From Clostridiales bacterium (GTDB lineage Bacteria; Bacillota; Clostridia; Christensenellales; Aristaeellaceae): DNA of 64,000 nt. Each line of letters begins with the position of its first letter. Within the stretch, counting starts at the first letter, position 1. The position numbers and the translations under genes were made by a program. Shown here one piece after another: positions 6,107 to 58,300 of the stretch. The DNA lies in NCBI GenBank assembly GCA_017569285.1, contig CP069419.1:930001-994000 (forward strand). The letters are read 5' to 3'. Under the pieces are notes generated by a model. That model worked only from the letters and a program-made list of their open reading frames with translations. It made no database searches and was not told the DNA's origin.

Positions 6107-6179
6107 GGCTCCGTTGTCTAGAGGCCTAGGACGCGGCCCTCTCAAGGCTGAAACACGGGTTCGAATCCCGTCGGAGCTG
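6107..6179 (+). tRNA. tRNA-Glu (CTC), island integration site
   Basis: Acceptor GGCTCCG with CGGAGCT, anticodon loop CCTCTCA region (CTC), T-arm ACGGG-TTCGAAT-CCCGT. CCA is not encoded. Its last 20 nt plus one base are duplicated at 20164-20184, marking the attachment site of the 14-kb island; the 3' end now present is the copy reconstituted at this junction. Confidence 0.9.
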
Positions 6180-6180
6180 C
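6160..6180 (+). repeat. attL: 21-bp core in tRNA-Glu 3' end
   Basis: Identical over 21 bp to 20164-20184, from the T-loop TTCGAAT to the final GCTGC. This is the classic core of a tyrosine-recombinase element inserted at a tRNA 3' end. Confidence 0.9.
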
Positions 6181-6189
6181 TTTGAGAAA

Positions 6190-6220
6190 GCCCTGCAATC
6201 TCAACGGTTGCAGGGATTTT
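6190..6220 (+). terminator. Terminator after tRNA-Glu (island-borne)
   Basis: Stem CCCTGCAA/TTGCAGGG with loop TCTCAACGG followed by ATTTTTTG. It replaces the original terminator, which now lies beyond attR. Confidence 0.75.
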
Positions 6221-6239
6221 TTGTGTCTCAAAAACAGCG

Positions 6240-6266
6240 TTTGACCCTTAATTTGACCCTTTACAG
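6240..6266 (+). repeat. Left arm-type repeats (TTTGACCCTT x2)
   Basis: Two direct copies of TTTGACCCTT 12 bp apart, ending TTTACAGA. The same arrangement recurs at 19983-20019 next to the integrase. The positions just inside both att ends suggest integrase arm-binding sites. Confidence 0.6.
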
Positions 6267-6291
6267 AATCAAAAAGGCTTCAATAAGAATG

Positions 6292-6432
6292 CCTGCCTTC
6301 GAATTCTCCGACCGGGCTGTGGAAATGGCCCTCATCAACAAGATTACCCAGAAAACCCGGCAGGAAAAGCCGATTCCCCGTGGCCGCTCCATCAACGAAC
6401 TGATGGGACGGCTTTCTCTTTTGAAAAAATGA
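6292..6432 (+). CDS. Small phage-remnant ORF, doubtful
   Basis: A 46-residue frame (MPAFEFSDRAVEMALINKI...) ending 16 bp before the capsid-like start. Position and composition suggest the tail end of a phage head-region gene; no family is recognised and there is no strong RBS. Confidence 0.3.
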   Translation, partial: PAFEFSDRAVEMALINKITQKTRQEKPIPRGRSINELMGRLSLLKK

Positions 6433-6448
6433 CAGGAGGATGATCAGT

Positions 6449-7539
6449 ATGACTATCACTGAACTGCGCAACAAGCGCGCCAAGACCTGGGAAGCGGCAA
6501 AGGCTTCTTCTCGGGAACATGGACGAGTATATCCACGGCTGCCAATACCGCCTGGACCTCCTTCACATCGTGGATCAGCGGGGTGTGGAACGGGATCTCC
6601 TCTACAGCCAGCACTGTTTTCAACGGCATCAAGACTACGATCTCCGGGGTGTGGACTTCCATCAAGACCGGAGCGGAAACCGCATGGAATTCTTTCACCA
6701 CCTGGATCAGCGGCGTATGGACGGGCATCAGCAGCAAAGCCACAGAGGTGTGGAACGGCGTCACTTCGTTCTTCTCCACTACCTGGAATAACATCAAGAG
6801 CGGGGCCACGACCGGATGGAACAACATCAAATCCGGTATCGAAGGCACCTGGAACACGCTAAAGAGCAATGCCTCCACTGCCTGGACCAACATCACGAAC
6901 GCGGTGTCCACCGCCATCACCAACGCGAAGGCTGGCATCGTGAACGGCTGGACCAACATCAAGAACGGCGTGAAAGGCGCGTGGGACAGTGTCCTGGGCG
7001 TGATCAAAAGCCCCATCGAATCAGCAAAGACATGGTTGCAGGAGAAAGTCAACTACTTCAAGGGCCTGTTCAACTTCCAGTGGAAGCTGCCGGAGTTCAA
7101 GCTGCCGCGCATCAGCGTCACCTGGAACGACATTGGCTGGGGTATCAAGCTGCCGAAGCTGTCAGTCTCCTGGAACGCGCTGGGCGGGATTTTCGATAAG
7201 CCCACCATCCTGGGCAGCGCTGCCGGGCTGCAGGGCGTTGGCGAGGCTGGAGCTGAAGCCATCCTGCCGCTGGACACCCTGTGGTCAGAGATGTCCGCAA
7301 GGCTGAAGGCGGGCATGATTGATGTGATGTCCGGCTTCATGGGCGAACGCTCTACTGAGAATATGGAATCCCTGCTGCGCGATCTGATCGACGCGGTACG
7401 CGCCAACAATGGCGAGACTGAAACCGTACCTGCCGTGAACGTGGAAAACATGGTCATGGCCAATGATATGGACGCGCAGTCCCTCGCCGCCGAGATCAGC
7501 GCCATGACGCGCAGGCGGCAGCACGGGTACGGCTATTGA
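6449..7539 (+). pseudogene. Deletion scar: capsid N-terminus joined out of frame to tape-measure C-terminus
   Basis: A strong AGGAGG precedes ATG 6449, which opens MTITELRNKRAKTWEAAKA, a typical HK97-type major-capsid start. At about 6500-6508 homology switches to another frame (GFFSGTWTSISTAANTAW), which runs to 7539 as the C-terminal part of a siphophage tape-measure protein. This part has tandem ~30-residue repeats ('TAWTSFTSWISGVWNGISS', 'TAWNSFTTWISGVWTGISS') and the 'GVGEAGAEAILPLDTLW' module near the tail end. A deletion therefore removed the rest of the head and tail genes and made a frameshifted fusion. The tape-measure part has no proper start and is probably not made. Confidence 0.75.
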
Positions 7540-8264
7540 CGGAGGTGATCAATACGCATCCTTATTTTCTGTGGAACGGGGTAAGCTCTGAGAACTACGG
7601 TATTATGGTCTCTGAGTATCCCGCGATCTCCCGCCCGAAAGAGCGCGTGAGCCAGATCACTATTCCGGGCCGGTCCGGTGTGCTGATGCTGCCGGAGAAC
7701 GGCCTGCCAGTCTATGAACCAGTGCTGAGAGCGGCGCAGTGCTGGGTCAGGCCGGATGCCGACATCGACGCTATCTGTGCGTGGCTCCAGGGCTCGGGCA
7801 GCGTGGTGTTCGGAAACGAGCCGGACCGCTCCTATGACGCCCGGATCATCAACCAGATCGATTTCAGCAAAATCCTCCGTGGGCGGGGTTTCAGGAGCTT
7901 CGCTGTGCCTTTCCAGTGCCAGCCCTATAAGCGCCTGAACCCGCCTGCGGAAGATATCACCCTGACAGCCAGCGGTATGACGATACACAATCCGGGTACA
8001 GTCCCGGCATGGCCGAAGTTCACCCTGTACGGGAGCGGAACGATTACGCTGATTACTTACAGTGGCGCGGTCGTTTTGAGCGGTATCGGCAACGGCATCG
8101 TGCTGGACTGGGAGGCGCAGGAGTGTACCAGCCTGGATGGCGGCCAGCTGCTGAACGACAAGGTGGACGGCGATCCGCAGTACCTTCCGCCCGGGGATAG
8201 CGTTATTAGTTGGACTGGTACAGTGGCAAGGCTGGTAGTGACGCCGAATTGGCGGTATCTGTAA
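7536..8264 (+). CDS. Siphophage distal tail (Dit-like) protein, start unclear
   Basis: About 242 residues similar to tail proteins encoded right after tape measure (NTHPYFLWNGVSSENYGIMVSEYPAISRPKE...). It has an N-terminal baseplate-hub beta domain and a C-terminal galectin-like half ending VVTPNWRYL, the usual end of this family. The expected initiation point is odd: GGAGGTGATC lies at 7540-7549, but the codon where ATG would be expected (7548) is ATC. The only in-frame starts are TTG 7536, which overlaps the previous stop, and GTG 7545. With head, portal and terminase genes absent it is an orphan remnant. Confidence 0.7.
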   Translation: MTEVINTHPYFLWNGVSSENYGIMVSEYPAISRPKERVSQITIPGRSGVLMLPENGLPVYEPVLRAAQCWVRPDADIDAICAWLQGSGSVVFGNEPDRSYDARIINQIDFSKILRGRGFRSFAVPFQCQPYKRLNPPAEDITLTASGMTIHNPGTVPAWPKFTLYGSGTITLITYSGAVVLSGIGNGIVLDWEAQECTSLDGGQLLNDKVDGDPQYLPPGDSVISWTGTVARLVVTPNWRYL

Positions 8265-8290
8265 AGAATCTATACGATCACTATTTCATA

Positions 8291-8319
8291 TTGACAAAAA
8301 AGCTCCTATATGGTAGAAT
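8291..8319 (+). promoter_or_regulatory. Consensus promoter of the MarR/radical-SAM operon
   Basis: TTGACA (8291-8296), 17-bp spacer, TAGAAT (8314-8319), 32 bp ahead of the MarR start. Confidence 0.85.
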
Positions 8320-8342
8320 TTCAAAGTACTACTATGTAGGAG
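8303..8342 (+). promoter_or_regulatory. MarR operator: 14-bp inverted repeat over the -10
   Basis: Arms CTCCTATATGGTAG (8303-8316) and CTACTATGTAGGAG (8329-8342) match at 12 of 14 positions as an inverted repeat with a 12-bp gap. The left arm overlaps the spacer and -10, so binding would block RNA polymerase. The natural ligand is the MarR encoded immediately downstream. Confidence 0.7.
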
Positions 8343-8350
8343 TTGTTGTT

Positions 8351-8788
8351 ATGGTAACGAACGGTGGATTCCTGGTCACAAAGATCAAACAGCTTGGCGA
8401 CCGCATTTTTGAAAAGGTGCTGGCCGAAAAAGGCATTGACGCCTTTAACGGCCCGCAGGGACGGATTCTGTATGTCCTCTGGCAACAGGACGGTGTGCCG
8501 ATCAAAACAGTTTCCGACACATGCGGCCTTGCCATTACTTCTCTTACCACGATGCTTGAGCGTATGGAGCGGCAGGGGCTGATCCGCAGAGAGTCGGACA
8601 GCCGGGACAAGCGCAAAACGCTGCTCTTCCTGACGGATAAGGCGAGGACGCTGCAGGTGGATTATGATGCCGTTTCCAATCAGATGGGCGCGCTGTACTA
8701 CAAGGACTTCACGGAGGATGAAATCCGGCAGTTCGAGGCTTGCCTGCAGCGGATACAACGGAATCTGGAGGAGAAGCTGAAATCATGA
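8351..8788 (+). CDS. MarR-family regulator of the mobile radical-SAM pair
   Basis: A 145-residue winged-helix repressor: recognition region 'VPIKTVSDTCGLAITSLTTMLERMERQGLIRR', wing 'ESDSRDKRKTLLFLTDKA'. It resembles the MarR-type regulators that accompany radical SAM mobile pairs. The start is ATG 8351; the frame is open upstream to 8210, but this would run over the promoter and operator. The stop overlaps the next start (ATGA), so it is translationally coupled with the radical-SAM A gene. The operator over its own -10 implies autorepression relieved by an unknown ligand. Confidence 0.85.
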   Translation: MVTNGGFLVTKIKQLGDRIFEKVLAEKGIDAFNGPQGRILYVLWQQDGVPIKTVSDTCGLAITSLTTMLERMERQGLIRRESDSRDKRKTLLFLTDKARTLQVDYDAVSNQMGALYYKDFTEDEIRQFEACLQRIQRNLEEKLKS

Positions 8789-9486
8789 GCGTATGCATCA
8801 AGGATCTGATCCAGAACATGAACCTGGTGATCGGCTGCGCGGTTGGCTGTCCGTACTGTTATGCCCGGAACAACGTGAAGCGGTATCACATGATCGACGA
8901 CTTTTCACAGCCGGAATTCTTTCCCGGAAAGCTGCGGATGATGGACAAGCCGCGCCCACAGAACTTCCTGCTGACAGGTATGAGTGACCTGGCGGGCTGG
9001 AAACTGGAGTGGCGCGAGGAGGTATTCGCAAAGATTCGGGATAATCCCCGGCATCAGTTCCTGTTTCTCAGCAAACGCCCCGATCTGCTGGATATCAGTA
9101 CGGATCTGGACAATGCCTGGTTCGGCGTTACGGTCACCCGAAAAGCGGAGCTTTGGCGCATCGAAGCGCTTCGGGAAAAAATAAAGGCAAAACATTATCA
9201 CGTGACCTTCGAACCGTTGTTCGATGACCCCGGCACGGTCAACCTGTCTGGTATCGGCTGGATTGTCGTCGGCACCATGACCGGAGCTCAGAGTCGGAAG
9301 GTTCACACTGAGCCCGCGTGGGCATATTCCCTGACGGAACAGGCGCACAGCCATCACATACCTGTCTTCTGGAAAGAGGATCTCGTTCCGATCATGGGCG
9401 AAGAACAGATGATCCAGGAGCTGCCGGAGGCATTCAATCACGTACTGGAGGAACAGAGAGCATGGAACAGCCGGAAATCAAAGTAG
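8785..9486 (+). CDS. Radical SAM mobile pair protein A
   Basis: A 233-residue compact radical-SAM enzyme. The 4Fe-4S/SAM motif is C18-x3-C22-x2-C25 in 'IGCAVGCPYCYARNN'. A further segment 'FLFLSKRPDLL...NAWFGVTVT' is typical of the phage Gp37/Gp68-like radical-SAM branch. The C-terminus lacks auxiliary Cys clusters. It matches the family named 'radical SAM mobile pair protein A', always found with a B partner on mobile elements; the reaction is unknown. ATGA overlap with marR and a 25-bp overlap with the B gene indicate coupled synthesis. Confidence 0.85.
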   Translation: MSVCIKDLIQNMNLVIGCAVGCPYCYARNNVKRYHMIDDFSQPEFFPGKLRMMDKPRPQNFLLTGMSDLAGWKLEWREEVFAKIRDNPRHQFLFLSKRPDLLDISTDLDNAWFGVTVTRKAELWRIEALREKIKAKHYHVTFEPLFDDPGTVNLSGIGWIVVGTMTGAQSRKVHTEPAWAYSLTEQAHSHHIPVFWKEDLVPIMGEEQMIQELPEAFNHVLEEQRAWNSRKSK

Positions 9487-10385
9487 GATTTGTCCAGACG
9501 AAGAGCATCATGACCAAGTCGAATGGGCCGCTGGGCGGGTATTCGGTCAACCCGTATGTGGGCTGTCCCCATGCCTGCAAATACTGCTATGCCAGCTTTA
9601 TGAAGCGGTTTACCGGGCATACCGAGGATTGGGGCACCTTCATGGATGTGAAGGAATGGCCCGCCATCACCAATCCGCAGAAATATGCCGGGCAGAAGGT
9701 GATCGTCGGCACGGTGACCGACGGATATAACCCGTTGGAGGAGAAGTTCGGAAAGACCCGCCTTCTTCTGGAACAGCTGAAGGACAGCGGCGCGGATATC
9801 CTGATCTGCACCAAATCCGATCTCGTCCTGCGGGATATGGATCTGCTGACGGAGATCAACAAGCGGAACCGGCTGACGGTTTCATGGTCGGTGAACACGC
9901 TGGATGAAAATTTCAAAAACGATATGGACGCGGCGGTCAGCATCGAAAGACGTCTCGCGGCTATGAAGCAGGTCTACGACGCGGGCATCCGGACGGTATG
10001 CTTCATTTCGCCGGTATTTCCCGGGATCACGGACATTGAGGCGATCTTCGAACGGGCGAAGGATCAGTGCGACCTGGTCTGGCTGGAGAACCTGAACCTG
10101 CGCGGCGGATTCAAGAAGACGATCATGGACTATATCGCGGCGAAGTATCCGCATCTGATGCCGCTGTATGAGGAGATCTACGGAAAGCGGAATCGCGGCT
10201 ATTTTGAAGCCCTCGAAAAGAAAGCCGAAGAGATGGCTCACAGATACGGCTGCCGCTTCGTGGATAATGAAACGCCCTACGAGCGCGTACCGCAGGGGCA
10301 TCCGACCATCGTGGACTACTTCTATCATGAAGAGGTTCGAGGCTCCCAGAATACGGGAGTTCGAAATAAGAAGGAGGAAAACTGA
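9462..10385 (+). CDS. Radical SAM mobile pair protein B
   Basis: A 307-residue radical-SAM protein with C35-x3-C39-x2-C42 in 'VGCPHACKYCYASFM' and the SplB-like segments 'VIVGTVTDGYNPLEEKF', 'DILICTKSDLVLRDMDLL' and 'VSWSVNTLD'. ATG 9462 with GGAGG at 9447 is chosen; the frame is open to 9318 inside gene A. It is the partner of protein A. The fold is close to spore photoproduct lyase-like enzymes, but no DNA-repair role is shown. Substrate unknown. Confidence 0.85.
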   Translation: MEQPEIKVGFVQTKSIMTKSNGPLGGYSVNPYVGCPHACKYCYASFMKRFTGHTEDWGTFMDVKEWPAITNPQKYAGQKVIVGTVTDGYNPLEEKFGKTRLLLEQLKDSGADILICTKSDLVLRDMDLLTEINKRNRLTVSWSVNTLDENFKNDMDAAVSIERRLAAMKQVYDAGIRTVCFISPVFPGITDIEAIFERAKDQCDLVWLENLNLRGGFKKTIMDYIAAKYPHLMPLYEEIYGKRNRGYFEALEKKAEEMAHRYGCRFVDNETPYERVPQGHPTIVDYFYHEEVRGSQNTGVRNKKEEN

Positions 10386-10386
10386 C

Positions 10387-10740
10387 ATGGCAAACTTCAG
10401 CAAGTGGAACGCAAAGCAGGACCCGAGAACCGAACTGCACGACGTACTGGGACTGACCGGCGCGGAGATCAGCATCAACAACCTTCCCGCAGGCGCGGGT
10501 GTGCCTTTCGTACACACCCATAAGAAGAATGAGGAAATCTACATCATCCTGTCCGGCAAGGGCAGCGCTGTACTCGACGGCGAAAAAGTTGATTTTGCCG
10601 CCGGAGATGTGATCAGGGTAGCGCCCGCAGTGAAGCGGCAGTTCAGCGCCGCCGCCGATTCACCTGTCAGCTGGGCCTGTATTCAGGTTCGGGAGAATTC
10701 CCTCGAAGAGTATACTGCCGGGGATGCTGTCATCGGATAA
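10387..10740 (+). CDS. Small cupin protein
   Basis: A 117-residue single-domain cupin. Motif 1 is 'FVHTHKKNEEIYIILSGKG' (His, His and Glu metal ligands) and motif 2 is 'FAAGDVIRVAPAVKRQF', where the usual final His is a Lys/Arg region. AAGGAGG precedes ATG 10387, which follows the radical-SAM B stop by one base, so it is the fourth gene of this operon. It may be a sensor or a small metal-dependent enzyme acting with the pair; this is inference from position. Confidence 0.8.
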   Translation: MANFSKWNAKQDPRTELHDVLGLTGAEISINNLPAGAGVPFVHTHKKNEEIYIILSGKGSAVLDGEKVDFAAGDVIRVAPAVKRQFSAAADSPVSWACIQVRENSLEEYTAGDAVIG

Positions 10741-10744
10741 GACA

Positions 10745-11333
10745 GGATCACAGTCAACGAGAGTTTCATGGTAGAAACGTTACGATGTGGATTGTGGTAT
10801 TTTGCATGCTGTTCAATGGCGGAACCATTCCCTGGTACATGTGCATGAAGAATTATGGCATGATGGACAACATGGCTGGCCTGATCCTAAGTGGCAGTCT
10901 CCCCGTATATAATGTGATACTGATGATGAATTTTTTCAGAAACTTTCCGAAGGATGTCGAGGAGGCTGCCATAATGGATGGCGCAGGAAAATGGCGGACT
11001 CTTTTCCAAATTGTTGTTCCCTGCTCCAAATCCGTTATCGCTACAATTACCCTGTTCGTCAGTATTTACTATTGGAATGAATACTTTCAGGGGCTTGTGC
11101 TTTCCAATTCAGAATCACATTATCCACTGCAAACCTACATCCGCCAGATTGTTGTCAGTATCCCGATGGGAGTAAATCTGACAACGGAACAAATGATTAA
11201 GATGAACCAGCTGTCCAACAAGTCCCTGAATGCGGCGAAAGTATTTATTACGATTATTCCCATGCTCGCGGTTGATCCGTTTATTCAGAAATACTTCGTA
11301 ACGGGGATTATGATCGGTTCTGTTAAGGAATAA
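10745..11333 (+). pseudogene. 5'-truncated carbohydrate ABC permease (CUT1, LplC/MalG type)
   Basis: The reading frame encodes the C-terminal two-thirds of a sugar ABC permease, including the EAA loop 'EEAAIMDGAGKWRTLFQIVVP' and the end 'FIQKYFVTGIMIGSVKE'. Homology-like coding continues upstream of the first ATG (10785) as 'REFHGRNVT', without any start, to the cupin boundary at ~10745. The N-terminal ~110 residues are therefore gone, and so are its ABC partners. It is a joint between the radical-SAM cassette and a sugar-utilisation fragment. Confidence 0.75.
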
Positions 11334-11347
11334 AAGGGAGGCATGTC

Positions 11348-13144
11348 ATGAGTCACTGGGTTTTAGAAGAAAAAAACGGCTCTCTGGCAAAGATCACTTT
11401 TGCAGATGACCCATTCCGCATGAACTGGGTAAATGAGCCTCATCTCTGGGGAGAGATGGCTGCACCCAATGGCATCTCCTGCACCTCTGCTCGAACTATC
11501 CTTCAGGATGATACGCTTGAGGAAACCTATATCTTTACGAACGAATCGCAGGAAACCATTTTCTGTGATGCGGGTAGCGTGTCCATTTCGCTTCCGCTGA
11601 ATGATAATTATTTGGCTGCGGATATCTGCCTGCCCCAGCGCTGCCATGCTCATGTCTGGTGCGGCGGAGAAGTCTCCTGGGTGCTTGCGATTCGAATGGG
11701 CGGCCAAGCTCCACATTTGGGAATGATTCTCACACAGGGATCTTTGGAAAGCTACAGCATCCAGCGCAGTTTAACGGAAAGTCACTGTGTCAGCAATACG
11801 CGAGGGGTCATTTTGCTTCATCCAAAAGAGTTTTCTCTGGCTCCTGAAGAAAAAAAGATCCTTCGGTGGAGGCTGTTTCGCCATGAGGGAATAGAAGACT
11901 GGAAGCGCATTCTGAAAGCATACTTTGGTTCGCTTTACATCACTTCCGAGCAATGGGTCGCTTTTCATTACGATAAAGTAAAATGGAACGGAGGATTCGT
12001 GGACACTAGCCGAACGGGAGAGATTTGTCAAACGTTCCAGTCAAACGGAAAATCAACCACTGCTTGCTGGCGAATCATGCCGCCTGCAACTGAGTTGCTG
12101 CGCCGCCGGGCCCAGTTTATTGTAGAAAAGCAACAGTGTATGGATACTTCCTCCCATTTATGCGGGGCATATCTGATTTACGATAATGAAACAAACAAGC
12201 TGTGCTACAGTCATGACATTCCTGATCATAACAGCGCAAGAGAACGTTTGGGGATGGGTGCTTTAGTCGCTTTGGCCTGTCGGTATTTCCACGATGCTGC
12301 ATTGGAGAAGAGTCTCTGGAATTACGCAGATTTTATTCTCAGGGAAATCTATGAAGAAAAAATCCATACTGTCTATGACGATGCTGGCTATATGGAAGAA
12401 AGACACCGCCTGTATAACGAAGCATGGGTCGCTGTGTTCTTTATGGAACTATTCCGAGTTACTCATGAACCTGTATGGATAAAACGGGCCGCTGATGTAA
12501 TGGAAAACTATTATGATCGTGGTGGTGACAGATTCTATGCCATTGGCATTCCCATGACTAGTATTGTTGCGCTGCTAAAAGAAGCCGGCATGACTGACCG
12601 TGCAGAAGACATGCGGCACCTGTTTATCCATCATGCAGAGAAAATCGCAGACATTGGAATTCATTATCCTACAAGCGAAGTGGATTATGAGCAGAGTATC
12701 GTCGCACCTGCAGTGAACATGCTGCTAATGGGTTATCAGCTCAGTGGAAAGCAGGCATTACTTTCTGCAGCAAGGGAACAGATGAAACTTTTGATACTAT
12801 TCCAGGGAATGCAGCCTGATTATCATTTCAACGAGGTGGCGATCAGACACTGGGATGGATACTGGTTTGGAAAACGGCATATGCTGGGAGATACTTTTCC
12901 GCATTATTGGAGCAGCCTCAGCGGCTTGGCATTCGAACGTTATGGGCATATTACCGGTGAAAAGGAATGGCTGGTCAGGGCAGAAAAAAATCTTAGAGGA
13001 AGCCTTCCTCTCTTCTTTGAGGATGGAAGTGCAAGCTGTGCCATGGTTTATCCCAGAAGTGTAAACGGGGTCACCGCTCATTTCTACGACCCGTGGGCCA
13101 ATGATCAAGATTGGGGCCTATACTATTATTTTCAAAGAGAATAA
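11348..13144 (+). CDS. Putative glycoside hydrolase-like protein (beta-sandwich plus alpha/alpha toroid)
   Basis: A 598-residue cytoplasmic protein with no signal peptide. The N-terminal ~220 residues are beta-rich. From about 250 on, helix pairs resemble six-hairpin glycosidases ('AQFIVEKQQCMDTSSHLCGAYLIYD', 'MGALVALACRYF', 'LYNEAWVAVFFMELFRVT', 'HDPWANDQDW'-like end). GGGAGG precedes ATG 11348. It follows a sugar ABC permease by 14 bp, as such hydrolases do in oligosaccharide operons. No characterised family is recognised, so substrate and catalytic residues are not assigned. Confidence 0.6.
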   Translation: MSHWVLEEKNGSLAKITFADDPFRMNWVNEPHLWGEMAAPNGISCTSARTILQDDTLEETYIFTNESQETIFCDAGSVSISLPLNDNYLAADICLPQRCHAHVWCGGEVSWVLAIRMGGQAPHLGMILTQGSLESYSIQRSLTESHCVSNTRGVILLHPKEFSLAPEEKKILRWRLFRHEGIEDWKRILKAYFGSLYITSEQWVAFHYDKVKWNGGFVDTSRTGEICQTFQSNGKSTTACWRIMPPATELLRRRAQFIVEKQQCMDTSSHLCGAYLIYDNETNKLCYSHDIPDHNSARERLGMGALVALACRYFHDAALEKSLWNYADFILREIYEEKIHTVYDDAGYMEERHRLYNEAWVAVFFMELFRVTHEPVWIKRAADVMENYYDRGGDRFYAIGIPMTSIVALLKEAGMTDRAEDMRHLFIHHAEKIADIGIHYPTSEVDYEQSIVAPAVNMLLMGYQLSGKQALLSAAREQMKLLILFQGMQPDYHFNEVAIRHWDGYWFGKRHMLGDTFPHYWSSLSGLAFERYGHITGEKEWLVRAEKNLRGSLPLFFEDGSASCAMVYPRSVNGVTAHFYDPWANDQDWGLYYYFQRE

Positions 13145-13153
13145 GCAGTGAAT

Positions 13154-13180
13154 TACCCCAACTTGCGGGGGTATTTTTTG
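13154..13180 (+). terminator. Terminator after the putative hydrolase
   Basis: TACCCC / GGGGGTA stem with loop AACTTGC followed by TTTTTT, 10 bp after the stop codon. Confidence 0.75.
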
Positions 13181-13242
13181 CGGAAATCGCTTTTCTCTTC
13201 CGAGTTTTCTTGCCAACAGGTGTCCCGATAAGCTGGAAGTTG

Positions 13243-13742
13243 TCAGTTCAAATGGGTCTTGTAACAGAGATAATTTCCGATGCATTCAAGTCCACATTCC
13301 TTCGCAACTTTTTCATATTCCTCATCGCAAAAAAACGTCATCACGTTGCCCTTTCGATGCTTGGCATCAGACAACGCCGCCTGCAGTAATTCCTTAAACA
13401 CTTCCGCATCATAATGTAAGGCACAGATAGTGTATAATTATCACATTTATTCTCAATCCATGTAAGTTTATCTGTCCTGACTATTCTACACGTGCTATTA
13501 ATATAGTCGCTTTCTTCGCCTCTTTGATTAAACATGGCGGAACAATAAGGGAATAAATCTCCATTTTTAACACTTTTCAAATCTGGCATGTCTGAATTAT
13601 TTAGCCGTATTTCCAGAATGTTACTTTTATCTGGTGACACCGAAATTGCAATCAAATTTGGTGAGTCATCAGATAATACCCACTTCAAATAATCATCTTT
13701 TGCGATTGCAACAGAATCCTTCACATCCAGGGGGATGCCCAC
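13243..13742 (-). pseudogene. Frameshifted hypothetical gene, possible acetyltransferase end
   Basis: On the minus strand a frame from 13742 (MGIPLDVKDSVAIAKDDYLKW) runs to about 13430. The protein-like sequence then continues in another frame as 'HYDAEVFKELLQAALSDAK' and 'FFCDEEYEKVAKECGLECIG', ending at 13243 with 'NYLCYKTHLN'. A one-base shift lies within about 13413-13436. The tail looks like the last strand/helix of a GNAT-type protein, but this is weak. The gene is more AT-rich than the neighbouring GC-rich block and lies isolated in the island. Confidence 0.5.
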
Positions 13743-13825
13743 ACATTTGTTAATGTATGAAACTGGTAAAAACAGTTCAATACAATGCTTGAGATTTGGT
13801 ACAGCATTTACCGCATTTCGTTACC

Positions 13826-14975
13826 CTGGCGGCCCAAGGGCGCATCGCCGCCCAACACCGGGACGGTGTTTCCGCGTTTGGCCATATGCCAACCGGAACC
13901 GGGCCCGGTTTGTGGCGAGCACATGCGCCCACAGGCCGGGGGGAGGGGCGGGCGAAAAGCACGGGCAGTGCGGGCGGAGCAGCCGAGCTACCGAAGTGAG
14001 CGGGACCCGGCCGGCGGGCCGTTTGCGGCGCAGGCGCCGAAGGGGCTCCGGGGCCCCACGGCGACTATTGCGCCGCACCGGAAAGCCGGAGAGGGGCTCC
14101 GAGGAAGCGAGGCCCGCCCGTGCGCCCGTGCCTGAGCCGGCGGAGAGAGACTCCGACGAGGGAGCGAATGCCTTCTAGGGCGAAGCGACAGGACTCGCAG
14201 AGGAGGCGCACGCGATAGCTGGCGGGAGGCGAAGCGGCGGTGCGCAGACCGGCGGCGAAAAAAGCCCGGAGGAGAAGCGGGCGAACCGCCGACGACCGCC
14301 ATTGGCGGGAGTTTCGTCGGCGGTGAGGTCAACCGAGACAGAGCGGCGGCAGCCGTAATGCCGCCGCGACAATCGAGGTTGCGGAAAGCCGAACTACCGA
14401 CGCGAGCGGGACCCGGCCGCGCCGAACATGCGGAACACAAGCCGAAGGGGCTCCGGGGCCCCACGGCGCAGATGGGCCGCACAGACGGCGCGGAGAGGGG
14501 CTCCGAGGAAGTGAGGCCCGCGCCGACTACCGGGCCGCGCCGCCGGGCAAGAGAGCCTGCGCCACGACGGGCACCGCCAGCGGCTAGCGTGCAGACGACC
14601 TGCGGTCCTGGAGCGAGCCCTGACAGGAGCGACCGAGGAGGCGGCGGCGCGACAGCCGGCGAAGCTGTGTATGGATCCAAGCTCCTGCGGGTCATGCGAA
14701 TCGCAGCGCTGGCGACATAGCAGCATGACAATACAAGATTGGAAAAGGACACAAGCAGGGCCTACGGGCGCACAGCCGCCCAATGCCGGGGCGGTTTCCG
14801 CGTTTGGCAGAATGCCAATGCGGAACCGGAGCCGGATTGTGGCCAGGCTATGCGACCGCAGGCCCGGGGGATGCGGACAGAGCTGCACCCGGAGATCAGA
14901 TTGGAAAAGGCGTCAGGTTTGTGCGGGAGCCGGCGAGCGGAGCGGAGCGCAGCGCAGCGAGCCCTGAAGTCTTCC
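13826..14975. repeat. GC-rich, repeat-built, hairpin-rich block of unknown function
   Basis: About 1.15 kb of strongly G+C-biased sequence, between AT-rich flanks, with no convincing gene in six frames. It contains diverged direct repeats: R1 13826-13942 versus 14758-14870, R2 13982-14118 versus 14388-14520, and a short 'GATTGGAAAAGG' at 14737 and 14900. Strong hairpins occur in and between them: CCGCCGACGA...TCGTCGGCGG (14286-14322), GCGGCGGC...GCCGCCGC (14343-14368), CGGAG-AGGGG-CTCCG in both R2 copies, and TTGGC-N5-GCCAA in both R1 copies, where the loop differs but the stem is kept. This looks like structured RNA or a structured DNA element. Strand and function are unknown. Confidence 0.6.
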
Positions 14976-15112
14976 TGTTATGCTCCTGATCATGCTCATC
15001 AGGGAAATACCCGGAATCGTTATGAATCAATCATCGTGGCAGAGTCATTCGAAAAAAGGCCCTGTTAATCATCTGTTAGCAGGTATTATCCGGGCATATC
15101 GGTACCTATCCT

Positions 15113-15384
15113 GGCTGACAGTATGCTGACAGTAAAATGACAATGGTTTGGAACTACTGTCAGCTCCGGAGCCTTTGAAATATAAGGGCCTTTCCGGATT
15201 CACTGACAGTACTGACACTTTTTCCAATTCCTTTACCCACAGTTTTATAATCATCACCATATATTTGATTTTCGGATTCTTGCTGAGAAGTTCAAAAAAC
15301 TGTCAGAAGTGTCAGCCGATTCGCGTCCAACCCTTGTGTTTATTGCATTCTGTCGGCTGACAGTCTCCTGACAGAACTGACAGT
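15113..15384. other. Putative replication origin: CTGACAGT iterons flanking an AT-rich core
   Basis: At least eight copies of CTGACAGT or its reverse complement, some with one mismatch, form two clusters: 15115-15218 and 15299-15384. Between them lies an AT-rich stretch (about 15228-15298) with the TTTTATAATCATCACC and ATATATTTGATTTT tracts. The block abuts the 3' end of the primase-helicase gene. This is the arrangement of staphylococcal pathogenicity-island origins, where Rep binds iterons on both sides of an AT-rich melting site. Function is inferred from layout. Confidence 0.7.
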
Positions 15385-15387
15385 TTA

Positions 15388-17664
15388 TCAGAAGAAACCG
15401 TATTCCGCATTCGTTTCCGCATTGAGCATCAGATTCCGGTAGTATGTTCCGGATTCCTTGTGGACTGTCATCCCCGCATAAGAGGTGCCCAGGTGAGAGG
15501 CCAGAATGTCCCGGAATTCCTTGGCTGTTTTCGCATATCCGTTGTTGTTATCAGCACACCATTGCCGATATGCCCGGTAGATCTGGCTGACAGTCATATT
15601 ACTGCGCTTATTTCCTGTACACTCGCACATGCATTCTTCATAGAACCCAACGACCGTACTGTTGTCCTTTATGTATTCCTGCCGAGCGGCTTTCACGCTT
15701 TCCGGCTCAGAAAAGCGATAGCCATTCCGCAGAACTTCCTGGAGGGCGCGGACCGCTTTATACAGGATCCCCTCCCGCTCTTCATACAGTTTGTCCACCA
15801 GGTTTTTGTCCTGTTTCTCTTTCGGAATGGTGTTAGGACAGCGGACGATCATAATCCGGTCATAGACCCATTTGCCATCATCCCCGCCGAACTTCGGAGG
15901 ACGGTTCATACAGAACCACAGAAGACCGTTATAGGTATACTCAAAACCATGCTGGCCTTTGAATTCCGCAAAGAGGCTGTCTCCGCCGGTGATCATCTTG
16001 AACGTCTTCAGCTCCGCCATGGTCATGAAGCTCATGTCTGAACTGCCGGCGAGGCGCTTGTCGTATATCATCCCGGTACCGAAACGCGCCTCAATCTGCT
16101 GCAGGTCGATTCCGATGAAGTTCCCACGGCCGAGGATCTTCTCCACCAGGCTCTTCAGAACCGATTTGCCGCAGTCCCCGTCGCCGACCAGGAACAGAGC
16201 TTTCTTCATCCGCCAGCCTTTTACATTGGACACACAGGCCCCAATGAATTCCAGCAGAAGCTGTTTAACTTCCGGATCCCCGTTTGTGAGCGTATCCATA
16301 TACCGATCAAAAATGGGTGTGGGGATATCTTCCCCGGACCAGTCACAGGGAATCTGGATGGTCGAATTTAAATCCGGGGAATGCGGAAAAAGCATCAGCT
16401 TATCCGGAGTGACCTGCAGAATACCATTCCGGAAATTGATCAGGCTTTCATCCGCGTTCAAATCATCCTGGGCGACGTAGTTCAGGTCGGTGGTGAGCAG
16501 GCTGTACACTTCGTTGATCTTATTCATGGTGATCAGTTTCTCGTTATATTCCGCCACCGGCGCTTTGATGATCCCAAGCATCATTTCCCTGGAATACAGG
16601 CTGTAGCATCCGTTCTCATACACAAAGACCAGTGTTCCCTGCCGGCTGCTGTCCCGGACCAGGATATACGGAACGGTCTCCCGGATATACTTTGCAAGCA
16701 GCGGCGCGTCCAGGACCGCTTCCCCTTTCTTTGTGAACACAATGAAAGATGGATGATCCATCACGGACGGATGGAAAGAGCCGGTGCAGGATTCGATTGC
16801 TTTCCGGATCGTATCCCTGCGGTAATCCGGCCGGGACAGCCATTTTTCCCGGCAGAGGGCTGAAGCATTGAATATCGCTTCGATCAGGGCCGGATTGTTG
16901 CCGGCCCGGTATGCGATAATGCTGCACAGAGCCAGGTCCGCCTCGGAGGCGGAATTGTAACCAGATATATCCCCTTTATCATAAAGCTTTGAGAACTTGG
17001 CGCCGTTCTTCTGCCGCTGCAGGGACGCAACCACATCAAAGGCCGCAGCCTCAATTTCCTCCGCCGTCATCTCCGGAGTATTCTCCTCCGCCTGAACAGG
17101 GGCAGCCGGCAGATCCGTCTTCATTTCCTTTTCCAGCGTCAGGAGAACAGCATTCGTGCAGTCCCCGACCGGAATATCCCGGATCGGCATATCAGAAAAG
17201 GTCGCATACCGGTTTGTGAGCCCGCCGATGTACAGCTCCATCCCGTTATGGGGATTCTTCGTGTAGTACCCGGGAGCCAAGATGCGCTTCCCATCCTCAT
17301 CTACAGCCGTCGGAATGCGGGACAGGTCACACTTCCCGATAATGTGAACCCCTCCGCCGCTGACGGATACTTCCGCATAGGACGAAAACCGCGCCAGCAG
17401 TTCCTGCACGAGCGGATCATCCTGCGTCCGGTGGTCCACGTCCAGGAGAAAGTACCCTTTCGGAATCACAAAACCGATGCCGCTGTACCTCTTATCCTTC
17501 GCGGCTTTCTTTGCCGCGTCATACAGGACCCATTGCCGGCGGAATTTCCGGGTGGTTCCGGTCCGATAGCCGGTAACGGAGTACGGAACCTTCGCGTTCT
17601 CCCTGCCATTACTGTTTTCATATCGCCAGATGAGCCAGATCGGCTGATTCCTGAGTTCCTTCAT
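15388..17664 (-). CDS. Primase-helicase (primpol/D5_N plus SF3 helicase)
   Basis: About 758 residues. The N-terminal bifunctional primase-polymerase region carries 'FLLDVDHR' (acidic DxD pair), 'EVSVSGGGVHIIG' and 'ILAPGYYTKNPH'. The middle is a D5_N-type domain. The C-terminal superfamily-3 helicase has Walker A 'GDGDCGKSVLKSL', 'SDMSFM' and 'LLWFCMNRPPKF'. Such proteins start and unwind replication of phages, plasmids and satellite islands. ATG 17664 is preferred because GGAGGA lies ~9 bp upstream; the first ATG (17682) overlaps that RBS. It lies immediately beside the iteron block and downstream of the excisionase, as in phage satellites. Confidence 0.85.
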   Translation of the reverse strand: MKELRNQPIWLIWRYENSNGRENAKVPYSVTGYRTGTTRKFRRQWVLYDAAKKAAKDKRYSGIGFVIPKGYFLLDVDHRTQDDPLVQELLARFSSYAEVSVSGGGVHIIGKCDLSRIPTAVDEDGKRILAPGYYTKNPHNGMELYIGGLTNRYATFSDMPIRDIPVGDCTNAVLLTLEKEMKTDLPAAPVQAEENTPEMTAEEIEAAAFDVVASLQRQKNGAKFSKLYDKGDISGYNSASEADLALCSIIAYRAGNNPALIEAIFNASALCREKWLSRPDYRRDTIRKAIESCTGSFHPSVMDHPSFIVFTKKGEAVLDAPLLAKYIRETVPYILVRDSSRQGTLVFVYENGCYSLYSREMMLGIIKAPVAEYNEKLITMNKINEVYSLLTTDLNYVAQDDLNADESLINFRNGILQVTPDKLMLFPHSPDLNSTIQIPCDWSGEDIPTPIFDRYMDTLTNGDPEVKQLLLEFIGACVSNVKGWRMKKALFLVGDGDCGKSVLKSLVEKILGRGNFIGIDLQQIEARFGTGMIYDKRLAGSSDMSFMTMAELKTFKMITGGDSLFAEFKGQHGFEYTYNGLLWFCMNRPPKFGGDDGKWVYDRIMIVRCPNTIPKEKQDKNLVDKLYEEREGILYKAVRALQEVLRNGYRFSEPESVKAARQEYIKDNSTVVGFYEECMCECTGNKRSNMTVSQIYRAYRQWCADNNNGYAKTAKEFRDILASHLGTSYAGMTVHKESGTYYRNLMLNAETNAEYGFF

Positions 17665-17754
17665 AGGTATGCATTCCTCCATTGGTTCATGATTCGGGTA
17701 GCGGCAAAACCGGCAACTGTCATATAAGCGGCTGCAGCGGGCGCCGGAGCGCTG

Positions 17755-17958
17755 TCAGCCCATCTGGTCGATGACGGTCCCCATGCCGGTCACATTGCGG
17801 TCCATCCAGGCTTCCAGCTGCTTCCTGGGCACCAGCACGCGCCTGCCGATATGCAGAGTCGGGAAATCCGCCCGGCGGCTCAACTGGTACGCGATCTGGC
17901 GGGAAACTCCCAGCAGCTTTCCGGCTTCCTCCACAGAGAGGGTCAGTTTCTCGGTCAT
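17755..17958 (-). CDS. Excisionase-type helix-turn-helix protein
   Basis: A 67-residue MerR-like 'excisionase family' DNA-binding protein (LSVEEAGKLLGVSRQIAYQLSRRADFPTLHIGRRVLVPRKQLEAW). It is divergent from the repressor and leads the primase-helicase transcript, where such a protein directs excision or activates the early module. GGAAGG lies upstream of the ATG. Confidence 0.85.
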   Translation of the reverse strand: MTEKLTLSVEEAGKLLGVSRQIAYQLSRRADFPTLHIGRRVLVPRKQLEAWMDRNVTGMGTVIDQMG

Positions 17959-18002
17959 GTTTTTTACCTTCCTTCTGCCGGTTTTCCCGGCTTAATATTT
18001 AT

Positions 18003-18074
18003 TTGTGCCAAACACTTGCATTTGGCACAATGTTATGATAATATGTTTGTGTGCCATTGTCAAGATTATGGCAC
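18003..18074. promoter_or_regulatory. Divergent operator region between xis and the repressor
   Basis: Two inverted repeats share TGCCA/TGGCA half-sites: TTGTGCCAAA...TTTGGCACAA (18003-18030, perfect 10-bp arms) and GTGCCAT...ATGGCAC (18051-18074, perfect 7-bp arms). They lie in the 158-bp gap between xis and the CI-like gene and are probably the operators of that repressor, controlling both directions. Confidence 0.75.
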
Positions 18075-18116
18075 GGCATTGTCAAAATGAACCATTATTG
18101 AAGGAGGGAAAGCAGT

Positions 18117-18773
18117 ATGGCACGGACAGCAGAAAAGCCCAAGGAAGGAATGGGAGCCCGGGTTGAAAGGGAGAGAATCAAAAGAGGATGGTCTCAGGAG
18201 GATCTGGCGGCAAGGCTGAACACCACAAGGAGTTCGATTAAAAACAAGGAACTGGGTGAACGACCGTTCTCACTGGATGAAGCAAAGATCCTGTGTGAAG
18301 CGTTCCATGTGACGCTGGACTATCTGGTAAACGGAAATGAGACGGAGAACGTCCCGGTCAGCGAAATCCTCGGACTGAGCGATGAAGCAATCTACAGCCT
18401 GCGGTATATCAATGAAAGGGCGCACAGCAGGCTGAAGGGCCTGGATATGGCGCTTTCCTCCCCTGCGCTGCTGATCGCGCTCTCCAGGTATATGACCTAT
18501 ACCCCGGCGGATAAAGGCTATTACCTGTCAGAAAGCGGTTCCTATGAGCGCGGTAAATTGATCGAATGCCGGATGAGCCAGGAATTGTTTGGAGATGTGC
18601 TGAAGCAGAACATTCTGCATATGGCCGAAAATGCAAAGGCCGGCAATTATAACGCCACACGATACTTCGAAGCATATGAGGATTTTGCCTTTGATGATGA
18701 GCTCAATGCCAAGCTAGCTGAGCCTTCAGAACCGGATTATGACAGGGGGAAAGGAAATGCCGAGAAAGAGTAA
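18117..18773 (+). CDS. CI-like XRE-family repressor
   Basis: 218 residues. The N-terminal HTH 'RVERERIKRGWSQEDLAARLNTTRSSIKNKELGERPFSLDEAKILCEAF' (13-62) is followed by a ~150-residue C-terminal domain without the Ser-Lys S24 protease motifs, so simple RecA-driven self-cleavage is not expected. GAAGGAGGG precedes ATG 18117. The gene is divergent from xis and overlaps the integrase by 17 bp. In phage-satellite terms it occupies the Stl position, where derepression by a helper phage protein is the known mechanism; whether that applies here is untested. Confidence 0.8.
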   Translation: MARTAEKPKEGMGARVERERIKRGWSQEDLAARLNTTRSSIKNKELGERPFSLDEAKILCEAFHVTLDYLVNGNETENVPVSEILGLSDEAIYSLRYINERAHSRLKGLDMALSSPALLIALSRYMTYTPADKGYYLSESGSYERGKLIECRMSQELFGDVLKQNILHMAENAKAGNYNATRYFEAYEDFAFDDELNAKLAEPSEPDYDRGKGNAEKE

Positions 18774-19971
18774 TACCCGGGGCGCTCAAGGCGACGGAAC
18801 GATCCGGAAGCGGAAAGACGGCCGCTGGGAGGCCCGATTTACGCTGGGCGTCGATCCGGGATCCGGAAAGCAGCTTCAGAAATCCGTGTACGGGAAATCT
18901 CAGGATGAAGTCAGGAAAAAGCTGAAGGAAATCACGACCGACGTTGACCGGGGAATCTATATGGAACCGACAAAAATGACTGTCGGCCAGTGGCTGGATA
19001 TCTGGATCGCCGAATACAATTCTGATATAAAAGACACGACGAAGCACCAGTATCAGTACCAGATCAACACGCATCTGAAGCCGGGGATCGGGATGGTGAA
19101 ACTGCAGGAGCTGACGGCAGTCGTGCTCCAGAAGTTCATCAACAGCCGCAGCAAGCCCTTTGTCATCACCCAGCTCTCGAAGAGTGGAAAACCGATTAAA
19201 GTTAAGAAGAACGGCCTCTCCGCCAAATCCATCCACAACATGCACAGCGTACTCCATGAGGCGCTGGTAAAGGCAATGAAGCTGGGATATATCCGGGTCA
19301 ATGTCTGTGACGCCATCACTCTTCCGCGGGCGCAGAAGGTGGATATGCATCCCATTACCGGAGCGAACGTCAAAAAGTTCCTGGCAGCCATCAAAGGCGA
19401 CCCGTATGAGGATCTGTACTACGTAACGATGTTCACCGGCCTCCGGGAGGGAGAAGTGCTGGGGCTCACCTGGGACTGTATTGACTTCGGAAAGTCCACG
19501 ATGAAGATATACCGGCAGCTGCAGCGGGATCGGCACCGCAACGGCCCGTATAAGTTTACCCCGCTGAAGAACAGCAAGACCAGATCCTTCATGATCCCGG
19601 ACAATGTGAAGGCTGTATTGCTGAAAGTGAAACGGGAGCAGGCGGAAAAGCGGCTCCAGTGCGGCAGCCGCTGGGAGAACGATGAAGGCTATGTCTTTAC
19701 CAATGACTCCGGCCATTTCCTGATGTACAGCACGGTATATGCGCGCTTCAAGCAGTATGTGAAGAGAATCGGCATACCGGAGACCCGGTTCCATGATCTG
19801 CGGCACACCTACGCCACGCTTGCGCTCCAGCAGGGTGTAGACGTAAAGACGGTTTCAGAGAACCTGGGCCATGCGACAGTGGCTTTCACACTGGATGTAT
19901 ATGGTCATGTTACAGAGGAAATGCAGAAGAAAAGTGCCAGCCTCATGCAGGCATATCTGGAGGCGCTGTAA
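18757..19971 (+). CDS. int: Tyrosine-recombinase integrase
   Basis: 404 residues from ATG 18757 with AGGGGGAAAGG upstream. An N-terminal AP2-like arm-binding domain ('GDGTIRKRKDGRWEARFTLG...GKQLQKSVYGKSQDEV') is followed by a SAM-like core-binding domain and the catalytic domain. The catalytic residues appear as 'TGLREGEVLGL' (Arg), 'FHDLRHTYATL' (H-x-x-R), 'LGHATVAFTLDVYGHV' (His and nucleophile Tyr). The gene points towards attR (193 bp away), as in most tRNA-targeting islands. It is probably responsible for insertion in tRNA-Glu. Confidence 0.95.
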   Translation: MPRKSNTRGAQGDGTIRKRKDGRWEARFTLGVDPGSGKQLQKSVYGKSQDEVRKKLKEITTDVDRGIYMEPTKMTVGQWLDIWIAEYNSDIKDTTKHQYQYQINTHLKPGIGMVKLQELTAVVLQKFINSRSKPFVITQLSKSGKPIKVKKNGLSAKSIHNMHSVLHEALVKAMKLGYIRVNVCDAITLPRAQKVDMHPITGANVKKFLAAIKGDPYEDLYYVTMFTGLREGEVLGLTWDCIDFGKSTMKIYRQLQRDRHRNGPYKFTPLKNSKTRSFMIPDNVKAVLLKVKREQAEKRLQCGSRWENDEGYVFTNDSGHFLMYSTVYARFKQYVKRIGIPETRFHDLRHTYATLALQQGVDVKTVSENLGHATVAFTLDVYGHVTEEMQKKSASLMQAYLEAL

Positions 19972-19982
19972 GGCGATTTTGA

Positions 19983-20019
19983 TGACCCTTTTTGACCCTT
20001 ATTTTGACCCTTTACAGAT
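19983..20019 (+). repeat. Right arm-type repeats (TGACCCTT x3)
   Basis: Three direct copies of TTTGACCCTT-like sequence ending TTTACAGA, matching 6240-6266 in order and orientation; probable integrase arm sites starting 12 bp after the int stop. Apart from these, attR and a terminator, nothing else was seen in 19972-20400. Confidence 0.6.
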
Positions 20020-20163
20020 TGTTATCGACGTATATCTCCAAGTAATCCGTTGTCATGAACGATGGATAGCAATTTCCTGAAGTCCTTGTAAATCAACGCT
20101 CAAAGCCACTCAACGATATTCGATGACACACCCTGGAATATGGGTTTTAGATATTTTTCGAGA

Positions 20164-20184
20164 TTCGAATCCCGTCGGAGCTGC
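20164..20184 (+). repeat. attR: 21-bp copy of the tRNA-Glu 3' end
   Basis: Identical to 6160-6180. It is followed by GCAAA-TCATC-GTTTGC plus T8 (20198-20226), most likely the original terminator of tRNA-Glu before insertion. Confidence 0.9.
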
Positions 20185-57670: not shown

Positions 57671-58225
57671 ATGAAAGACTTCAATTCGTATTTTGAATCG
57701 ATTCCTGAGTTGGAAACAGAGCGGTTGCGATTAACTGCATTTACAAGAGAAGATATGGACGCTTATTTTGACATATTGCGAGATCCTAAAGTACAAGAAT
57801 ATCTTGGAGGAGGAGTTCCGGTTTTTGACAAAGAGCCGCATATCAGCAATTGGCTGAGGAATATAAACGATCGGCTGTTGAAAAGGAAGATTGTTTTTAC
57901 CTGGTGTATAAGGGACAAAGAAAGCAATCGGGTGGTTGGTCGTATTGATTTGGGAGGCTTTGTAAAGAAAACAGCAGCTGAGATTTCGTATCACCTATCA
58001 AGTGATTTTTGGGGCCGTGAGATTGCCACAGAGGCCGTAGAAAGGGTGACCAGGTTCGGCTTGGATGAGCTGGGACTTGCGAGAATACAAGGCCTTGTCA
58101 GGATAGAGAATCAAGCATCAATTCGCGTATTGGAAAAGAATGGATATCTCAGGGAAGGCTTGCTGCATCATTATCCTTTCGGGCGTGAATTTCATGATGT
58201 GGTGATGCTTGCAATCGTCAGATGA
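57671..58225 (+). CDS. GNAT acetyltransferase (RimJ/RimL type)
   Basis: 184 residues: 'LETERLRLTAFTREDMDAYFDIL', 'GRIDLGGFV', acetyl-CoA region 'SSDFWGREIATEAVERVTRFGLDELGLARIQGLV' and 'NQASIRVLEKNGYLREG'. GGAGGCAG precedes ATG 57671. Target unknown. Confidence 0.85.
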   Translation: MKDFNSYFESIPELETERLRLTAFTREDMDAYFDILRDPKVQEYLGGGVPVFDKEPHISNWLRNINDRLLKRKIVFTWCIRDKESNRVVGRIDLGGFVKKTAAEISYHLSSDFWGREIATEAVERVTRFGLDELGLARIQGLVRIENQASIRVLEKNGYLREGLLHHYPFGREFHDVVMLAIVR

Positions 58226-58236
58226 ATTCCAGTTTT

Positions 58237-58296
58237 TCGGAGTTTGAGAAAAAATCCGATGAAATTACCGCCACTGGCGGTCATCGGATTCTTTCC
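58237..58296 (-). terminator. Hairpin next to the left GTGTTCA module
   Basis: AATCCGATGA / TCATCGGATT with inner CCGCC-AGT-GGCGG and T6 on the minus strand. It may be the old terminator of a minus-strand tRNA displaced by the insertion. Confidence 0.55.
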
Positions 58297-58300
58297 CCCG

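Follow-up and report, generated by a model that had tools for sequence, protein, structure and literature searches.

The G+C-rich block at positions 13826-14970 of the analysed stretch of 64,000 nucleotides (the window) is one copy of a homologous family of strongly folded sequences that is uncatalogued in Rfam. We favour, at a probability of roughly 0.55, the reading that it is the gene of a large modular non-coding RNA, about 1.15 kb long here, which is specified by the + strand and serves the element in which it resides. The block would then be an RNA gene carried by the integrative elements and the phages of a single bacterial genus, and it would be transcribed, probably during excision or replication of the element. 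Its RNA would fold into a chain of stable domains, with an H hairpin at each end and the duplicated R2 module between them.

Composition, repeats and coding capacity

In 300-base windows the G+C content is 0.63-0.74 across 13750-14949 as compared with 0.37-0.47 at 12850-13749 and 0.43-0.51 at 14950-15849, and the block as a whole has about 70% G+C over its ~1.15 kb. This sharp contrast with the flanks (0.37-0.51) was part of the original prediction, as were two repeat families and a pair of hairpins, and all were recovered. The first family, called R1 there and the H motif here, comprises three stretches in 13831-13944 that are repeated in 14759-14871 with 80-88% identity and a spacing of 926-928. 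The second, R2, comprises three stretches in 13981-14132 that return in 14387-14536 with 75-91% identity and a spacing of 404-406. The TTGGC-loop-GCCAA hairpins, located at 13878-13892 and 14804-14818, proved to form the tip of a longer hairpin with several tiers. Of the strong stems that had also been claimed between the repeats, the one at 14279-14384 belongs to a separate element. Part of the block is thus a copy of a genome-wide hairpin element, which the original prediction had missed. The features of the block are as follows.

13757..13786, +: weak promoter-like site, about 40 nt upstream of the block (9/12 consensus matches)
13826..13945, +: H motif, 5' copy; long multi-tier hairpin (covariance model 73.3 bits; 10-copy alignment)
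13981..14117, +: R2 module, first copy (covariance model 123.4 bits; 8-copy alignment)
14118..14278, +: linker downstream of R2, duplicated along with R2 as a unit of about 285-295 nt (block self-alignment)
14279..14384, +: inserted copy of the dispersed 105-nt double-hairpin element (covariance model 108.2 bits)
14387..14521, +: R2 module, second copy (covariance model 133.7 bits)
14756..14872, +: H motif, 3' copy (covariance model 80.7 bits)
14867..14970, +: 3' terminal part common to the copy in genome G036 (69.5% over 105 nt to L067/L117, E 1e-6 to 1e-7)

A convincing promoter or terminator was not found on the + strand of the window copy. Promoter-like sites number eight in the region versus 1.9 expected from shuffles, and that at 13757..13786 is no evidence by itself.

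That the block encodes a protein is hardly credible, and no convincing protein gene was seen in it. Open reading frames of up to 254 amino acids would speak for coding, yet none of the five that were tested (three smaller ones were left out) matched Pfam at E 0.1, and in the alignment with the closest relative, L057, 10 of the 12 gaps are not multiples of three, only two being so. Since the gap pattern and the Pfam result reveal no conserved coding frame, a protein gene was rejected, in agreement with the earlier statement that there is no credible reading frame.

Relatives and conserved structure

Covariance models were built for three parts of the block: the H motif, the internal R2 module and the dispersed element. 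The H motif was found in at least 7 of 45 genomes of the same genus and R2 in at least 5 of the same 45, giving 7 genomes in all. When all 308 genomes of the family were scanned, the same 7 (H) and 5 (R2) genomes were found; among the candidates scored, none of the 263 family genomes outside the genus had the block, the 45 genus genomes being counted within the 308. These genome counts are lower bounds because the family and genus scans used stricter filters and only some candidates were scored per genome. BLAST with the block also returned relatives within the genus. A scan of the order with R2 hit 1 of 297 genomes, which was the block's own, in a list that names only five same-genus genomes. 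In this genome H and R2 have two matches each, all of them inside the block. Primase relatives from other genera had no G+C-rich stretch after the primase (eight fetched and seven examined, L056 being omitted as partial and L051 and L053 having only about 0.8 kb of flank).

Outside cellular genomes, the R2 module is found in one phage, within a block of about 1.8 kb that gave no match to the H covariance model. Two IMG/VR contigs with 99.9% identity over 8.7 kb stand for this phage and were counted once. Three further viral contigs from a pattern search were unsupported by the covariance model (best 16.1 bits, E 0.44). The other pattern searches of viral contigs for the block yielded nothing or the same two contigs again, and blastn against named phages and plasmids gave no match to it. 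The original prediction had counted a lack of homologues outside this genome against itself; such homologues exist, within the genus and in one phage. Literature searches turned up no paper that we recognised as a description of the family, which is not proof of absence.

Conservation of structure was assessed on sequence-based alignments from which the structures themselves were predicted, with shuffle statistics that ignore relatedness. For H, all 10 + strand copies were aligned; 89.1% of the cells of 33 pairs are paired, 17 of the 33 pairs show two-sided changes, and none of 500 shuffles reached any of the five measures. Slid versions of the structure had 33-53% of cells paired, in a test that favours the unslid version because the structures were predicted from the same alignments. 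For R2, eight of nine copies were used (L073 was dropped as near-identical to L072), with 37 pairs, 94.6% of cells paired and two-sided changes in 6 of 37 pairs. Its covariation score was reached by 0/500 shuffles and three of the five measures exceed all shuffles, but it fails the other two, the count of compensated pairs being reached by 25/500 shuffles and the number of pair types by 384/500. Hence the structure of the block is conserved at the level of modules, strongly for H and partly for R2, and the expectation of covariation above background held on all five measures for H and on three for R2.

Over 846 columns aligned between the block and its closest relative, the consensus fold has an energy of -268.6 versus -202.8 (sd 6.6) for 15 column shuffles, and 75 of 269 pairs are broken when the fold of the window copy is projected on L057. 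Among the copies the modules are duplicated and shuffled, and an H on the 5' side and the order of R2 recur in several of them.

Genetic setting and strand

In the window the block lies in an integrative element of about 14 kb that is inserted at a tRNA-Glu gene and extends from about 6158 to 20184. The island of the original prediction thus stands, with a larger extent than the part on which that prediction had focused. Its main features are listed here.

6107..6180, +: tRNA-Glu (ARAGORN), whose 3' end at 6158-6180 is the likely left attachment site (22/23 bases repeated at 20162-20184)
15116..15383, +: iteron-like TGACAG/CTGTCA repeats, probable replication origin (repeat density)
15388..17682, -: primase-helicase with NrS-1 polymerase HBD, DUF5906, D5_N and Pox_D5 (Pfam)
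17755..17958, -: small HTH_17 protein (Pfam)
18117..18773, +: HTH_3 repressor-like protein (Pfam)
18739..19971, +: tyrosine integrase (Pfam)
20162..20184, +: likely right attachment site, repeating the 3' end of tRNA-Glu (22/23 match to 6158-6180)

No shuffle out of 100 had two matches to the attachment-site pair. Direct repeats near the block had been tried as attachment sites and none was convincing; the likely pair was later located at the tRNA. A phage satellite would be expected to have integrase, repressor and primase genes and no capsid genes of its own. Beside the integrase, HTH and primase genes the island has cargo genes (radical SAM, DUF5131, cupin and a transporter), and no capsid gene was seen among the part of its open reading frames that was scanned. 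The empty site was not obtained via the neighbouring gene because that gene, found in 3 of 45 genus genomes, is itself cargo. The TGACAG/CTGTCA motif occurs 8 times in 381 nt beside the block versus 46 times in the whole 64 kb.

The same set of genes, with integrase, repressor-like protein, primase and a convergent block, is present in L057, L061 and L117 (mirrored, in G036). In all four integrative elements, the window's included, block and primase gene flank the probable origin on opposite sides and the block is directed at that gene, with spaced repeats in between (counted in the window, L057 and L061, judged by eye in L117). In G036 a DUF3800 gene stands between the repeats and the block of L117, and type I restriction genes follow. 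Further copies are found in a prophage, L060, with terminase, portal and head genes, where the block lies between terminase and portal; in the L072 phage, with portal, terminase and RusA genes, where it is far from the terminase; in a mobilisable element with MobA/MobL (L059); and, in L058, as a short copy close to a tRNA-like repeat of 46 bp. The position beside a replication origin, as originally described, is therefore true of the integrative elements examined, but not of the prophage and phage copies, which had no such adjacent origin in the regions read.

Three observations were made in passing at these loci. A skipping-rope RNA (RF02924, 48.8 bits) lies at L067 239-318 in G036, near the 3' end of the block; a further G+C-rich folded stretch at L072 11145-11745, beside the portal gene, has a 3' end resembling that of the window block; and a ToxN type III toxin gene is found at L058 7564-8277, near the short block copy.

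The arrangement in the integrative elements, where the block points to the spaced repeats and is convergent with the primase gene, would suit a + strand transcript that enters the origin and there, in the role of an antisense or primer RNA, controls replication or primes it. We regard this as very unlikely, as the prophage and phage copies have no such origin beside them in the regions read and the DUF3800 gene separates repeats from block in G036. Rather unlikely, too, is that the block works as DNA, namely as a folded site that acts in cis in replication, strand transfer or packaging and whose hairpins are recognised in single-stranded form. In the integrative elements its position beside the spaced repeats and the primase gene agrees with such a site, and so does the prophage copy, since packaging sites may lie between terminase and portal; the L072 copy, far from its terminase, does not. 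A sequence of more than 1 kb with conserved domains would also be long for a site.

The strand evidence bears on the choice between RNA and DNA. The + strand of window 13826-14690 folds with -493.4 kcal/mol (z -6.7) and the - strand with -458.3 (z -4.9); z-scores were calculated from 20 dinucleotide shuffles per strand, none of which reached the observed value. Eight stretches were folded in total, and on the + strand 39-54% of their unpaired bases are A and 3-17% T, a strand asymmetry with A in the loops that argues against a DNA site. The + strand is the more stable in seven of the eight, the exception being L072b, which folds better on the - strand and is overlapped by a 322-aa open reading frame; the 3' end of L072c, judged by eye, was the sole ground for assigning it to the block family.

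The covariation strand test is mixed. Consensus energies for the + and - strands are -48.0 and -43.5 for the dispersed element, -47.1 and -46.4 for R2, and -28.3 and -30.9 for H, favouring the + strand in the first, neither in the second and the - strand in the third. This lack of a clear strand preference would be expected of DNA, as would the rarity of G.U in R2 stems. In R2, a module with little T in any case, G.U makes up 1.1% of pairs (3/278); the share is likewise 1.1% in the dispersed element and 7.8% in H, the reference being 12 of 120 pairs in the predicted folds of five window tRNAs. The projection of the window fold on L057 gave 17 G.U versus 15 A.C, thus no excess of G.U. Taken together, the A-rich predicted loops and the stronger folding of the + strand favour a large non-coding RNA transcribed from that strand. 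The original prediction had left the choice between a large non-coding RNA and structured DNA; homologues and covariation support a large, structured, non-coding element linked to mobile elements, and composition and folding tilt the choice to RNA while the strand test stays mixed.

To our knowledge, large ornate phage RNAs are few and of unknown function. By Rfam the block belongs to neither of the two families that the original prediction had named and set aside, GOLLD and ROOL: no Rfam match to it was obtained at the gathering score in the window or in eight loci with block copies, and neither family was among the matches up to E 10 in 13000-15500. Overall, the Rfam matches comprised only tRNAs, the one skipping-rope RNA of the G036 locus and five weak unrelated ones. 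GOLLD is described as a large ornate RNA of phages and prophages, longer than 800 nt in many members, with a less conserved 5' and a conserved 3' region (PMC12286853). The block resembles it in size and setting, but differs in lacking a match to its Rfam model, in residing in small integrative elements with a primase, and in its duplicated modules and invading hairpin repeat. ROOL is likewise described as large, phage and prophage encoded and extensively structured (PMC12286853); the block has no match to it and is G+C-rich, modular and about 1.1-1.8 kb long within the limits set here. Abundant orf-less transcripts have been described for PLE phage satellites (IIR) and for phage ICP1 (an ncRNA of ~800 nt), the latter likened by its authors to GOLLD and ROOL (PMC7567579). 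Their hosts and elements are unrelated to those of the block, and their transcription was shown, whereas that of the block is predicted; the likeness is one of description. By analogy with GOLLD and ROOL, the block RNA might oligomerise and might act in trans as a scaffold or complex that serves the element.

If this is a further such RNA family, its members would be compact natural systems in which a large RNA can be deleted and tested. They would be of modular build and found not just in small integrative elements but also in a prophage and a phage of the same setting. A wider idea we consider unlikely: a new class of large modular RNAs, common to small integrative elements and the phages of their host and duplicated and re-assorted by module, might mediate interaction of the element with phage replication or packaging.

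The dispersed double-hairpin element

The element at 14279-14384 is 105 nt long, consists of two adjacent hairpins and is separate from the block. This genome has at least 43 matches to it, 150 of 1400 candidates having been scored, the two weakest with 43.7 and 30.3 bits; a weak match with 43.7 bits lies at window 58209-58297 (-). BLAST with the block, whose matches are nearly all to this part, reached 31 of the 45 genomes of the genus and one of 55 from elsewhere. Within the family the covariance model detected it in 35 of 160 genomes and in 18 of 50 genera. Among viral contigs, 22 pattern matches were obtained, of which one was confirmed by the model and none was accompanied by H.

The alignment comprises 38 of 69 match rows, the other 31 being same-place repeats or partial, extra or weaker copies. 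Its 32 pairs are 98.0% paired, 27 of them with two-sided changes, and all measures lie above 500/500 shuffles. Both stems have tandem G.A mismatches where some copies, judged by eye, show Watson-Crick pairs instead. The low share of G.U suits DNA hairpins, and the element may act as DNA.

In the window and in L057 the element lies between the two R2 units; it is absent at the corresponding place of L072 and follows H in L058. These differing positions we read as at least two insertions. Copies occur in tandem at places. The element looks mobile.

Its presence inside the block, and at another spot in L058, together with modules that are duplicated and shuffled between copies, could be taken to mean that the whole block has accumulated from mobile or selfish hairpin repeats and has no function of its own. 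This we deem unlikely. H and R2 are not dispersed, with their two matches each in the block as against at least 43 for the dispersed element, and the 5' H and the R2 order are retained in several copies.

In its many short dispersed hairpin copies the element is akin to the REP/REPIN sequences described together with RAYT transposases (PMC3116915), and as a palindromic repeat with at least 43 matches it is dispersed in the same sense. It differs in not flanking a RAYT gene of its own. Three RAYT-like Y1 transposase genes were read (G000:C1:1810930, 2899018 and 2935271), and by eye their flanks have their own, different short repeats. A copy of the element was seen within 2 kb of one gene but not in the sequence read around the other two; RAYT or IS200 genes were unsupported as its movers. 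With its many compensated pairs and its scarcity of G.U, this second uncatalogued element prompts one to ask what copies it. At L029 ~1504-1609 a copy is located directly before a sequence that, by eye, resembles a tRNA or tmRNA 3' end.
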